Below are positions 1-15,112 of a DNA stretch of 15,112 nucleotides, one piece after another. The position numbers and the translations under genes are program-made. The stretch comes from Thiohalomonas sp. (GTDB lineage: Bacteria > Pseudomonadota > Gammaproteobacteria > GRL18): positions 1-15,112 of the forward strand of contig JAIVER010000005.1 of NCBI GenBank assembly GCA_023864145.1, in the 5' to 3' direction. Below the pieces are notes generated by a model. The model saw nothing but the letters and a program-made list of their open reading frames with translations, was not told the DNA's origin and ran no database searches. Numbering within the stretch: the first letter of the stretch is position 1; the number at the start of each line of letters is the position of its first letter.

Positions 1-477
1 AAAAGAAATCATAATGATGAGGTGGCGGATAATTTGCTTAATCAGAACTTCGATCCTGTTGCGCCTAATCATATTTGGGCCGGAGATATTAGCTACTTAA
101 AAACAGGTGAAGGCTGGATGTATTTGGCTGTTGTAATGGATTTGTACTCGCGCCGTATTGTAGGCTGGTACGTCAGCAAACGAATGACAACAGACTTGAT
201 ATGCAAAGCAATGATCATGGCCTGCAACTTAAGGCAACCACCTTTTGGGCTTGTTTTTCACAGTGATCGAGGTTCTCAATATACCAGTAAGCGGTACAGA
301 AAATTACTGAGTAATTATGGAATCCGAGCAAGTATGGCTGATGTTGGAGCTTGTTGGGATAATGCCGTAGTTGAACGCTTTTTTGGAAGTCTCAAGCACG
401 ACTGGATATTTAAAATTGCTCAATCTACCCGTGAACATATGAAGAAAGATGTTGCAGTTTATACCCATGACCTATGA
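1..477 (+). pseudogene. IS3-family transposase (OrfB), truncated at both ends in this window
   Basis: This is the catalytic domain of an IS3-family DDE transposase, which cuts and joins IS ends. The frame is open from base 1, so the start lies outside the window; the GTG at 22 is only the first possible start codon visible. The triad is present: D in WAGDI (base 85), D in FHSDRGSQY (base 265) and E in NAVVERFF (base 373). The second D and the E are 36 codons apart, the D-35-E spacing of the family. The frame matches the family up to KDVAVY, then runs into an IS630-type end at base 460 and stops at 475-477. The usual continuation, an RYYN-type segment and about 30 more residues, is missing. 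Truncation at a TA dinucleotide fits disruption by an IS630-type element. Family assignment is secure; the protein is very unlikely to be active. Confidence 0.88.
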
Positions 478-508
478 AAATCAAGCATTTTCATAGGTCA
501 TGGGTATA
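460..508. repeat. 45-bp palindrome of two facing IS630-type terminal repeats, flanked by TA
   Basis: Bases 462-480 (TACCCATGACCTATGAAAA) are the exact reverse complement of 488-506, with a 7-base loop, TCAAGCA. A TA dinucleotide lies directly outside each arm (460-461 and 507-508), the target duplication typical of IS630/Tc1-type elements. Bases 472-507 read in reverse complement are identical to 14941-14976, the outer end of the IS630 element at the right edge of the window. The palindrome therefore consists of two ends of that element type joined head to head with no body left. It also closes the IS3 frame with a stop. It could be a deletion derivative or the scar of aberrant excision. Confidence 0.8.
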
Positions 509-677
509 GCCCAAATTTGAATCCGATAGAGCGGTTTATGGAAAGTAATGAATGAAAAGGTGAGAAATAATCATTTTTTTCACAGTGCTTAAAGAGTTTC
601 GAGAGAAAATTAATGAGTTTTTTGATGAAATTTTACCGAGCATTTTCAAGTTGATTGGGTATAAGTTCTTCAGTTAA
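505..677 (+). pseudogene. IS630-family transposase, C-terminal remnant with two frameshifts
   Basis: The first frame reads YSPNLNPIERF, the hallmark near the third catalytic acidic residue of IS630-family transposases (the E of NPIE). A single extra base near 538 shifts the frame to WKVMNEKVRNNHFFHS. Another extra base near 587 shifts it again to LKEFREKINEFFDEILP and SIFKLIG, ending at TAA 675-677. Together these give the usual C-terminal tail of the family; everything upstream of YSP is missing and replaced by the palindrome at 462-506. The last codons overlap a probable IS right end. Non-functional. Confidence 0.82.
636..663 (+). mobile_element. Probable right end of the decayed IS630 element, with TA flank
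   Basis: Bases 636-661 end in GGGTA followed by TA at 662-663. They share AGCATTTTCA and TGGGTA in register with the intact end at 481-506 and differ mainly in the middle. This is what a diverged terminal repeat of the same family would look like. The position also marks where the transposase remnant gives way, on the other strand, to amidase-like coding sequence. The boundary is inferred from the repeat and the TA. Confidence 0.5.
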
Positions 678-1016
678 GCTAACTGATTCTTTATCAGATA
701 AGATAAAAGTATGTCTTAAATATTCATCCAGAGGTGTGAGAAAACCCAGAGGGTATCAAAGTCAAAAATAACTGACTGATGATTGGTTGATGCCAGTAAA
801 ATAACATGATAATCCCAAATGACAGGCTGATTCAATGGTGCAGCCATTTGATTGAGCAAGGGGAATTTTTGCGCGGGGTTAGTGATGAGCAGACACCACA
901 TCTTATTCATTGCTATACTGGCGGATGAGAGTGAGCAGTATTAACTGCCAGATATTTTCCTCACAAAAAAGAGCGGTATAAAGGTAATCGGTTTTATGAA
1001 ATTCTTTATTGAGCAT
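664..1016 (-). pseudogene. Protein N-terminal glutamine amidohydrolase-like pseudogene (NTAQ1/Nt_Gln_amidase family)
   Basis: The family deamidates N-terminal Gln of proteins to Glu, which in eukaryotes feeds the N-end rule. On the reverse strand, ATG at 1016 starts MLNKEF and runs to LFCEENIWQL, matching the catalytic-Cys motif (CYCEENIW in human NTAQ1). This frame stops at 903-905. The next frame, from about 910, gives MWCLLITNPAQKFPL, then PVIWDYHVILL with the catalytic His, then FDFDT with the catalytic Asp 15 residues after the His. It stops at 716-718. From about 740 the first phase resumes as LTPLDEYLRHTF and continues to the IS630 end near 663. Cys, His and Asp are thus all encoded, but over two compensating frameshifts. 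The roughly 90-residue C-terminal half known from human NTAQ1 is missing. It is divergent from ycaO, with 41 bases between start codons. Family recognition is from motifs only. Confidence 0.78.
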
Positions 1017-1057
1017 AAGATTAGAATAATTTAAAAAAAATTCAGGATGTTAAAGCA

Positions 1058-2806
1058 ATGACAAAAACCTATATTAAAGGTAAAGATGAGGCTTTGGAAG
1101 TCTCAATTGAAAAAATGCAGGCACAATTGCAGGCACTTGGATTTGAGATTGAAGAAACGCTCTGGCTTAATCCTGTAGGCAATATCTACTCGGTTAATAT
1201 CCAGGATAAAAACTGCCCGTTATTATTTACCAATGGTAAGGGCAGTAGCAAAAATGCCTGTCTTGCCAGTGCTCTGGGAGAATTTTTTGAACGCCTGAAC
1301 TGTAACTATTTCTTTGCTGATTATTATCTGGGTAATAAAATTGCTCATGATGACTTTGTCCATTACCCCAATGAAAAATGGTTTTCTCTGGAAGGTTCAG
1401 ATGCTCAGATGCGTGCTGAACTGCTCAATGATGAATTATGGTCATTTTATGATCCGGAAAAACTTTTAAGCCCTGGACTGCTTGTTGATACTAATTCCGG
1501 TAATGCTCAGCGCGGTATCTGCTCGCTGCCTTTTGTAAGACACAGTGATTTGAAAACAATCTGGTTTCCAGTGAATATTATTGGCAATTTATATGTCAGT
1601 AATGGCATGTCAGCCGGTAATACCATGATGGAAGCCCGTACTCAGGCGCTGTCAGAAGTATTTGAACGCTATGTTAAAAATCGCATTATCGCAGAAGGTA
1701 TCAGCCTGCCTGAGGTACCGGATCATATTATTGAACTGTATCCTAAAATACTTGCTGCCATTGATGAACTGGAAAAAGAAGGTTTTATGATTGAGGTAAA
1801 AGATGCATCATTGGGTGGCCGTTATCCGCTGATCTCTGTGGCAATGATGGAGCCGGACTCCGGGCGTTGTCTGGCATCATTTGGTGCACATCCCAGCTTT
1901 GAGGTGGCATTGGATAGAACCATTACGGAGCTCTTACAGGGACGGTGTCTTGATTCTCTGGATGGTTTTCAAACTCCGTGTTTTGATGCACAAGCCGTGG
2001 CTGACCCGGTTAATCTGGAAAACCACTTTATTGATTCCAGCGGTTTGATAAGCTATGATTTCTTTAAAAAGGACAATGATTACGAGTTTGTCTATTGGGA
2101 TTTTGACAGCAGCACTCAATCAGAGTTTGAGTTTCTTTTGAGTATGCTTGATGGCGAAAATAAAGAGGTTTATATTGCAGATTATGAACATCTGGGTGTT
2201 TATGGTTGTCGTATTCTGGTGCCGGGTGTTTCTGAAATTTATCCGGTTGAAGAACTTAACTGGCAGAATAACAATGAAGGTCTTGCACTCAGAGAGCGCA
2301 TTTTATCTTTAGGTCTTTTAGATGTTGAACAGGCAAAAGAATTATTACAGGAACTGCAAGAAAGTGACTATACTGATCATTCAGATGTCTGTGGTTTGAT
2401 TGGTATTGCACCTGATCCGCAAAGTGTTTTTGAAAGCCTGAGAATCGGTGAATTAAAAGGCATGCTTGCCTTGCACTCAGGTGATTTTACTCAGGCATTG
2501 GAGTGGGCTGAATGGTGTCTGGAAATGGCACAGTTGCCAGCACCCAGAGAAAAACTCTATCGTGCATTGGTGGTCATGCTGGAAATTCATCTGGATGAAA
2601 ATAAGGACCGGGAAATGTATCGCGATGGTTTAGATGCTTTGTATGGTCTGGATACGGTGAAACGCTGTATTGCTCTGATTGATGGTGAAATGCACTATGA
2701 TGCTTTATTTGATGCAGGATTAAAGTTAAACGGTTTGCAGCGTCATCAGAGTTTGTTAACAGCTTATGAGAAGTTACAGGAAGCTAAAAGCAGGTTTAAT
2801 GGCTGA
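1058..2806 (+). CDS. ycaO: YcaO-domain protein, E. coli YcaO type (ribosomal S12 methylthiolation factor)
   Basis: The 582 residues are collinear with E. coli YcaO (586 aa) from MTKTYIKGKDEALE to the end (HQSLLTAYEKLQ). YcaO enzymes activate amide backbones with ATP. The E. coli protein is reported to support beta-methylthiolation of ribosomal protein S12 together with RimO; its exact chemistry there is unsettled. Visible ATP-site signatures are E75-x-x-E78-R79 (GEFFERL) and E200-x-x-E203-R204 (SEVFERYVKNRI), followed by NGMSAGNT-type and FGAHPSFEVALDRTITELLQGR segments. Residues from about 430 on form the helical C-terminal extension of this subtype. AGGA at 1044-1047, ten bases upstream, is a plausible ribosome binding site. 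No precursor peptide, dehydrogenase or exporter gene lies nearby, so a RiPP role is unlikely. It probably heads the transcript that includes folE and folX. Confidence 0.93.
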   Translation: MTKTYIKGKDEALEVSIEKMQAQLQALGFEIEETLWLNPVGNIYSVNIQDKNCPLLFTNGKGSSKNACLASALGEFFERLNCNYFFADYYLGNKIAHDDFVHYPNEKWFSLEGSDAQMRAELLNDELWSFYDPEKLLSPGLLVDTNSGNAQRGICSLPFVRHSDLKTIWFPVNIIGNLYVSNGMSAGNTMMEARTQALSEVFERYVKNRIIAEGISLPEVPDHIIELYPKILAAIDELEKEGFMIEVKDASLGGRYPLISVAMMEPDSGRCLASFGAHPSFEVALDRTITELLQGRCLDSLDGFQTPCFDAQAVADPVNLENHFIDSSGLISYDFFKKDNDYEFVYWDFDSSTQSEFEFLLSMLDGENKEVYIADYEHLGVYGCRILVPGVSEIYPVEELNWQNNNEGLALRERILSLGLLDVEQAKELLQELQESDYTDHSDVCGLIGIAPDPQSVFESLRIGELKGMLALHSGDFTQALEWAEWCLEMAQLPAPREKLYRALVVMLEIHLDENKDREMYRDGLDALYGLDTVKRCIALIDGEMHYDALFDAGLKLNGLQRHQSLLTAYEKLQEAKSRFNG

Positions 2807-2909
2807 TGACTTTAACTCCGATTCTTTTAACCCTAAAGAAAGGGCTGTTATATTTGTAAATGATTGTTTACAATCTACACAGTTTAAATACAAGAATTCT
2901 AAAAAGTAG
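2799..2909 (+). CDS. Possible 36-residue small ORF between ycaO and folE
   Basis: An ATG at 2799 overlaps the ycaO stop by 8 bases and opens a frame starting [18 protein letters not shown] that stops at 2907-2909, seven bases before the preferred folE start. An AGG four bases upstream could serve as a weak ribosome binding site, and the overlap would allow translational coupling. I recognise no family. It could equally be chance open frame within a 110-base spacer. Low confidence. Confidence 0.25.
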
Positions 2910-2916
2910 AAAAGAA

Positions 2917-3456
2917 ATGAAAGAAAATTTTGCCAATATTATCTCGGAAGTCGGAGAAAATCTGGACAGAGATGGCTTAAGAGATACCCCCGAACGAGCA
3001 GCTAAAGCCTTTCAGTTTTTAACTCGCGGCTATCATCAGAATATCGATGAAGTGGTTAATAACGCCATTTTTAAATCTGATAATGATGAAATGGTGCTGG
3101 TTAAAGATATTGAAGTTTATTCCCTGTGTGAACATCACTTATTGCCTTTGATCGGCAAATGTCATGTTGCCTATTTACCGCAAGGTAAAGTCATCGGTTT
3201 GTCCAAAATTGCTCGTATTGTTGATATGTATGCCCGTCGCCTGCAGATTCAGGAAAATATGACTAAGCAGATTGCAGAAAGCATTATGGAAGTCACAGGT
3301 GCCAGAGGCGTTGCCGTGGTATTGGAGGCGAAACATTTATGTATGATGATGCGTGGTGTGGAAAAACAAAATTCTATGATGACCACCTCAATGATGCTGG
3401 GAGCCTTTCGTGAAATGCCCTCCACACGTTCTGAATTTTTAAGTTTGATTCGTTAG
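2917..3456 (+). CDS. folE: GTP cyclohydrolase I (FolE)
   Basis: FolE converts GTP to 7,8-dihydroneopterin triphosphate, the first step to folate and tetrahydromonapterin. With the start at 2917 the protein has 179 residues, close to the Pseudomonas FolE1 length, and begins just before the conserved [13 protein letters not shown] segment. Zinc ligands are C71 and H74 (SLCEHHLLP) and C142 (KHLCMMMRG), with the same Cys-Cys spacing as E. coli. [10 protein letters not shown] and [15 protein letters not shown] are also family signatures. An in-frame ATG at 2860 would add 19 residues that do not resemble the family and has no ribosome binding site. The site before 2917 is also weak (purine-rich AGAAAAG). 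folX follows after 16 bases, the pairing known from Pseudomonas. Function is secure; the start is probable. Confidence 0.93.
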
Positions 3457-3472
3457 ATTGGGAAGGTAAGCC

Positions 3473-3856
3473 ATGTCTTTTCAAAAGCAGTCTTCTCAAA
3501 TAGCAACGATTTATATTAAAAACTTACGTCTCAGGACGTTTATTGGTTTTAATGAAGAAGAAAAAAACAAAAAACAGGATGTTATTGTCAATATTCAGCT
3601 GCGTTATGATGCAGCAGCTGCTGCTGAAAGTGATTCTGTTGATGACGCCTGTAACTATAAAATATTAACCAAAAAGATAATTGCCCTGGTAGAAGGGCAG
3701 GCATTTGATCTGTTAGAAAAAATGGCCGGGGATATTATTGCCCTGATTGCTTCTATCGGCAAAGTGCAGGAGGCATCAGTGGAAATTGACAAGCCTCATG
3801 CCTTACGTTTTTCAGACTCTGTTTCCGTTAAAATGGGATACCAGAAGAATGGTTAA
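3473..3856 (+). CDS. folX: Dihydroneopterin triphosphate 2'-epimerase (FolX)
   Basis: FolX epimerises 7,8-dihydroneopterin triphosphate to dihydromonapterin triphosphate on the way to tetrahydromonapterin, the cofactor of bacterial phenylalanine hydroxylase. The 127-residue protein has the FolB/FolX tunnelling fold. It follows E. coli FolX rather than FolB: KNLRLRTFIGFNEEE near residue 17, a CNYKILTKKII segment in place of NALNYRTVTKNII, and VEIDKPHALRFSDSVSV near the C-terminus containing the conserved Lys. GGAAGG at 3461-3466, six bases before the ATG, is a strong ribosome binding site. The substrate is the product of the upstream folE. The stop codon overlaps the stop of the oppositely oriented ispB. 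FolB aldolase is the alternative call, but the sequence favours FolX. Confidence 0.9.
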   Translation: MSFQKQSSQIATIYIKNLRLRTFIGFNEEEKNKKQDVIVNIQLRYDAAAAAESDSVDDACNYKILTKKIIALVEGQAFDLLEKMAGDIIALIASIGKVQEASVEIDKPHALRFSDSVSVKMGYQKNG

Positions 3857-14929: not shown

Positions 14930-14939
14930 ATTTTTCACA

Positions 14940-15112
14940 TATACCCATGACCTATGAAAATGCTTGATTTTCATAGAGAAGAAGCTCTAAATTATCCAAT
15001 GACGCAAATTACTCTCACAGGCCATGAAAAATCAGCTCTAGAAATGCAAGATAAGCATTCTGGAAATGGAAAAGAACGAGATAGAATCAAAGCCATCCTA
15101 CTTTGCTCTGAA
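14940..15112 (+). mobile_element. IS630-family insertion sequence, left part, running off the window
   Basis: A TA at 14940-14941 is followed by the terminal repeat starting TACCCATGACCTATGAAAA (14942-14960). This equals both arms of the palindrome at 462-506. Bases 14952-14976 also form a subterminal hairpin, CTATGAAAA / TTTTCATAG with a TGCTTGA loop. A transposase frame follows. The right end is outside the window. Confidence 0.85.
14999..15112 (+). CDS. IS630-family transposase, N-terminal fragment (cut by the window end)
   Basis: The visible 38 residues start MTQITLTGHEKSALE and contain NGKERDRIKAILLCSE, the start of the helix-turn-helix DNA-binding region of IS630-family transposases, typically followed by a DDE domain. 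No good ribosome binding site precedes the ATG at 14999. The frame stays open upstream to an ATG at 14954 inside the terminal repeat (MKMLDFHREEALNYP), so translation might begin in the IS end. Whether the element is intact cannot be seen. It points in the same direction as ileS, so ileS readthrough could transcribe it. Confidence 0.8.
   Translation, partial: MTQITLTGHEKSALEMQDKHSGNGKERDRIKAILLCSE

Follow-up and report, generated by a model that had tools for sequence, protein, structure and literature searches.

What gene once stood to the left of ycaO in the window, a stretch of 15,112 nucleotides from Thiohalomonas sp., and what did its decay take from the organism? The window corresponds to contig C5 in a draft genome that measures 1.94 Mb, comprises 432 contigs and is about 94% complete. 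The earlier note had recognized here, on the reverse strand, the motifs LFCEENIW, PVIWDYHVILL and FDFDT of an N-terminal glutamine amidase (NTAQ1 family) split over two reading phases. Reading the reverse strand of window 601–1060 in three frames bears out the three motifs in that order: YTALFCEENIWQL and, downstream, YPLGFLTPLDEYL...LTEELIP lie in the same frame, and PVIWDYHVILL and IFDFDT, which belong to the middle part, lie in a different one. The two phases therefore stand, with the addition that the first phase resumes after FDFDT and that the sequence is truncated at about 658–664. The catalytic Cys, His, and Asp are all retained in order, the Cys in a frame different from that of the His and Asp (Table 1; pieces mapped by tblastn with the proteins of 10 relatives, L007, L009, L010, and L013 being left out). 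Instead of a single open frame of about 200 residues, the window copy has two frames and a truncation. The only open reading frame (ORF) on the ORF list in this stretch is 716–910, which encodes 64 residues, the size of the fragment that the earlier note had given as the most that gene finders would call, if they called anything.

Table 1 Features of the left part of the window.
Feature	Position	Strand	Basis and remarks
IS3-family transposase fragment, to contig start	1..477	+	NCBIfam IS3 transposase 197.8 bits (cut-off 160); Pfam rve
IS630-family fragment, genome repeat	460..663	+	Right end abuts the gene remnant; begins with a 49-bp palindrome
Nt_Gln_amidase (NTAQ1-family) gene remnant	658..1016	-	ATG (1016–1014) to truncation at ~658–664; PF09764 above cut-off; 89% DNA match to a relative's intact locus; tblastn pieces
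Remnant piece 1, with CEENIW	942..1016	-	Catalytic Cys codon ~963–965; triad placed through an intact relative aligned to human NTAQ1 and the available part of PMC4214742
Remnant piece 2, other frame, with WDYH and FDFD	752..934	-	His codon ~806–808; first Asp codon ~761–763
Remnant piece 3, first frame again, up to the truncation	658..740	-	Frame reading and tblastn
ycaO, intact, divergent neighbour	1058..2806	+	NCBIfam YcaO_for_S12 850.6 bits (cut-off 700); 582 aa

The family assignment is upheld by both profile and translated searches. The 64-residue ORF alone scores 46.4 bits against PF09764 (Pfam cut-off 27), and a profile search of the window's own genome (G000) gives 44.5 bits (cut-off 27) at C5 737–916, the sole PF09764 place in that genome. 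Window 664–1016 scores 89.0 bits in tblastn with the intact protein of a relative (G015) as query. Dinucleotide-preserving shuffles of 664–1016 stay far lower, with a best score of 24.6 bits among 200 listed of 1000 and, when the control is rerun, of 24.3 bits among 656 listed of 1000. An intact relative matches human NTAQ1 (4w79) over residues 10–173 with an E value of 1.3e-22 and with the triad conserved (Cys28, His81, and Asp97 in the human enzyme, as given in the available part of PMC4214742), and the triad region is invariant in 11 aligned relatives. Against Pfam, the same protein scores 139.9 bits for PF09764 and 16.4 bits for the next family, Gln_deamidase_2, which is below its cut-off of 25; none of the NCBIfam models matches the protein. 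The intact relatives thus resemble NTAQ1 (PF09764; human 4w79 and 3c9q) in sequence family, in the Cys-His-Asp triad, and over most of the length. In contrast to NTAQ1, the window copy is truncated and divided between two frames, the gene resides in bacteria, which are without ubiquitin, and the activity of the bacterial proteins is predicted.

Elsewhere in the genus the gene is mostly whole. Twelve of the 15 same-genus genomes other than the window's own carry a full-length, stop-free amidase gene and one (G009) carries a wreck that scores below threshold; G010 and G011, which are 64% and 79% complete, give no amidase match. At the codon level, the intact genes show the mark of purifying selection, the two nearest of them giving a dN/dS of 0.09 at a dS of 1.65, which is near saturation (10 of 15 pairs were kept, five G008 pairs being left out, and three of the 10 gave no value, dS being saturated). 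In nine of the 12 genomes with a full-length copy the gene adjoins ycaO in divergent order, which supplies the intact homologue beside ycaO that the earlier note had proposed to look for, and the G009 wreck is placed likewise. The locus of the nearest relative matches window 658 to 2883 at 89% DNA identity, with 38 bp between the two start codons compared with 41 bp between the ATG of the remnant and ycaO. In G001, G005, and G006 the amidase gene lies apart from ycaO, and it is not beside ycaO at any of the seven loci compared outside the genus (G018, G071, G097, G159, G356, G366, and G381; flanks compared over at most about 1.5 kb). Because not all of the genus shares this neighbourhood, little about function can be concluded from it, and we read the adjacency as shared chromosome order rather than as an operon; a functional tie between the amidase and ycaO was considered and set aside on the same distribution.

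Two further loci deserve a description of their own. The wreck in G009 (L019 971–1126, reverse strand) is a second, separate one; it has TGA in place of the catalytic Cys codon, and its match ends near residue 53. A selenocysteine reading of this codon was set aside because of that early end. In G018, the amidase gene is near tpmT-like and topA-like genes, as named from their protein starts.

Beyond the genus the family is sparse. A search of 5.8 billion proteins returns 952 amidase relatives at E values up to 0.001, among 1004 candidates, and most of the best 120 of the 952 are nameless. PF09764 exceeds its cut-off in eight of the 368 other genomes of a class sample, spread over six genera with the window's own included, and in none of the 397 other genomes of a phylum sample. 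Two additional genomes of the class sample, G096 and G136, were rejected as carriers; they stay below the Pfam cut-off, and only later parts of the profile match. The earlier note had described a bacterial member of a family best known from eukaryotes. Membership holds, and the 952 relatives in genome and metagenome data indicate that such a member is rare rather than unique. Among the titles and abstract openings listed, in which subscription papers are largely not covered, none concerns a bacterial NTAQ1 or reports an activity of a bacterial member, nor do the available parts of PMC4214742 and PMC10318531.

In the bacterial N-end rule of Vibrio vulnificus, as described in the available part of PMC3692480, Bpt has N-terminal Asp and Glu as its targets; bulky hydrophobic N-termini are read by ClpS/ClpAP. 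We infer for the amidase a place upstream of Bpt. An intact amidase would use its Cys-His-Asp triad to convert the N-terminal Gln of a protein to Glu, the Leu-transferase Bpt would then add Leu to the new N-terminal Glu, and ClpS would pass the Leu-tagged protein to ClpAP. This placement is proposed from co-occurrence with genes that are themselves common. The comparison took in 23 genomes: that of the window, the other 15 of its genus, and seven from outside the genus that carry the amidase. Of these, 21 have Bpt (PF04377), which is absent from G005 and G010 (71% and 64% complete); Aat is present in 22, being absent from G005; and ClpS is present in 21, being absent from the window's own genome and G001 (76% complete). 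Of the 369 genomes in the class sample, 223 have Bpt; counted by genus, it occurs in 162 of 271, and all six amidase-positive genera have it (chance 0.044, uncorrected for kinship). Counting G096 and G136 as amidases would weaken this association, since neither is Bpt-positive.

Both transferase genes of the window's own genome, aat and bpt, have open frames and are conserved, with NCBIfam scores above cut-off and dN/dS values of 0.08–0.12 against two relatives, and Bpt also has an ATE_C match. ClpS has no match in this genome, for which an assembly gap is a possible cause. When a 9.4-kb stretch of a relative is used as query, neither clpS nor clpA is found in the assembly; the matches lie outside both genes, with one exception of 160 bases at 67% on another contig, which carries a Clp-type ATPase in pieces. 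On contig C208 (1–160; L143), the alignment to the relative stops at the start codon of clpS, the point at which an IS630-family copy begins. The genome would thus have lost the amidase step, apparently along with clpS and clpA, and kept aat and bpt. Several observations belong beside these. Contig C116 has, at about 2206–3529 on the reverse strand (L145), a Clp-type ATPase that is 32–46% like ClpA and matches in separate pieces, and that may be another decaying gene. An IS630-family end is located about 50 bp past the bpt stop, at the end of contig C214 (3443–3479; L129). The right end of the window (14939–15112) enters another left-end copy of the IS630 family, identical to the ends of C208 and C214, and the 53-residue frame there has no Pfam match.

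Taken as a pathway, the genes allow a tentative reading, which we hold as possible though short of probable, in which some bacteria run a eukaryote-like three-step N-degron branch (NTAQ1-type amidase, Bpt, and ClpS/ClpAP) and the lineage of the window is taking it apart: one and the same IS family lies at the start codon of clpS and at the amidase gene, and both transferases are still open. The likeness to the V. vulnificus system (PMC3692480, available part) consists in the open Aat and Bpt of the window's own genome and in the ClpS of most of the 23 genomes. The difference is that the available account of that system covers only primary and secondary residues, whereas the amidase step is a proposal made here and the window's own genome has no ClpS match. 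A rival of comparable, likewise limited, plausibility is that the intact bacterial protein puts this fold to another use, such as deamidating another protein or a peptide, and plays no part in the N-end rule. The fold is common to protein-glutaminase and other enzymes (PMC4214742, available part), and the weak match of the intact relative to Gln_deamidase_2 points in the same direction. In addition, G009 has lost the amidase and kept ClpS and Bpt, and G001 has the amidase and no ClpS match, opposite patterns which indicate that amidase and ClpS do not strictly co-occur. Against this rival, the match to human NTAQ1 spans most of the protein, the PF09764 score is far above that of any other Pfam family, and the presence of Bpt in every amidase-positive genus of the class sample compares with its presence in 162 of 271 genera overall.

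Whatever the substrate, the copy in the window is damaged in three places. Compared with the intact locus, the frame changes near 932–944 and again near 737–754, and the alignment ends at 658–664, where the IS630-family repeat starts. This repeat has 79 matching stretches among the matches listed in the window's own genome, a figure that takes in the window itself and counts the pieces of a single copy separately. Two other copies score above the cut-off for DDE_3 and below that for the IS630 transposase model, the latter because those copies are fragments. Window 460–508 is a 49-bp palindrome of IS end sequence fused to a late part of the transposase frame; the same arrangement recurs on other contigs and looks like a short non-autonomous IS derivative.

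The damage could in principle lie in the data, the gene being whole in the living organism and the frame changes and truncation being sequencing or assembly errors. The assembly is a draft in many contigs, considered here apart from its reads, so errors at repeats are possible, and the left end of contig C5 consists of IS fragments with many copies. We regard this explanation as improbable. Three separate lesions fall within 360 bases, while ycaO (582 aa), aat, and bpt are open, and no other part of the assembly matches the missing last third of the gene, with its conserved SDRSHM, at E values up to 10. IS630-family elements follow a TA rule for insertion, and at the junction the gene-like sequence runs up to a TA next to the IS end, as from an insertion. 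Continued expression and use of the 64-residue ORF, or of a frame-shifted product, is scarcely credible: the middle frame is open over 64 codons and shows a low dN/dS (0.23) when compared with the nearest relative, but the ORF has neither the catalytic Cys nor the last third, and a low dN/dS is the expectation for a recent break.

The remnant is therefore very probably what is left of a genuine bacterial N-terminal glutamine amidase gene that became a pseudogene recently, in a genome that is reduced and rich in IS elements. A recent loss beside ycaO, as the earlier note had supposed, agrees with the divergence values of the codons. Since close relatives keep the gene whole, it looks recently lost. 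The three pieces, compared apart with the nearest relative, give a dS of about 0.42 and a dN/dS of 0.19, little above the 0.11 of ycaO in the same genome pair (dS 0.41). These values fit a recent break, for which 104 codons are too few to serve as proof, and the low dN/dS of the pieces, which a recent break leads one to expect, suggests by itself no clear relaxation.

The setting of the loss is consistent with a host-associated life. The other same-genus genomes that are at least 90% complete measure 2.9 to 5.2 Mb. The YcaO of the window shares 91% identity with the YcaO of a gammaproteobacterial symbiont living in the clam Lucinoma myriamae and 88% with the one from a Bathyaustriella thionipta symbiont, and Thiohalomonadales symbionts have been detected in both hosts in a study of lucinid clams (PMC9938160, available part). 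From this kinship and from genome size, the organism of the window would itself be a symbiont. The gene cut at an IS, the many IS copies, and the small genome beside larger relatives are like the IS-driven gene loss of host-associated bacteria with shrinking genomes (e.g. the available part of PMC6020299), from which we note no difference and which provides an ordinary frame for the remnant.

As a pseudogene, then, the remnant is a commonplace of reductive evolution. What gives it value is the enzyme family to which it points, one known from the eukaryotic N-end rule that selection maintains in one genus of gammaproteobacteria and that occurs sporadically elsewhere, in genomes that mostly also carry Bpt and ClpS. 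It raises the question of whether N-terminal Gln is a degradation signal in some bacteria, and points to a little-studied step of bacterial protein turnover.
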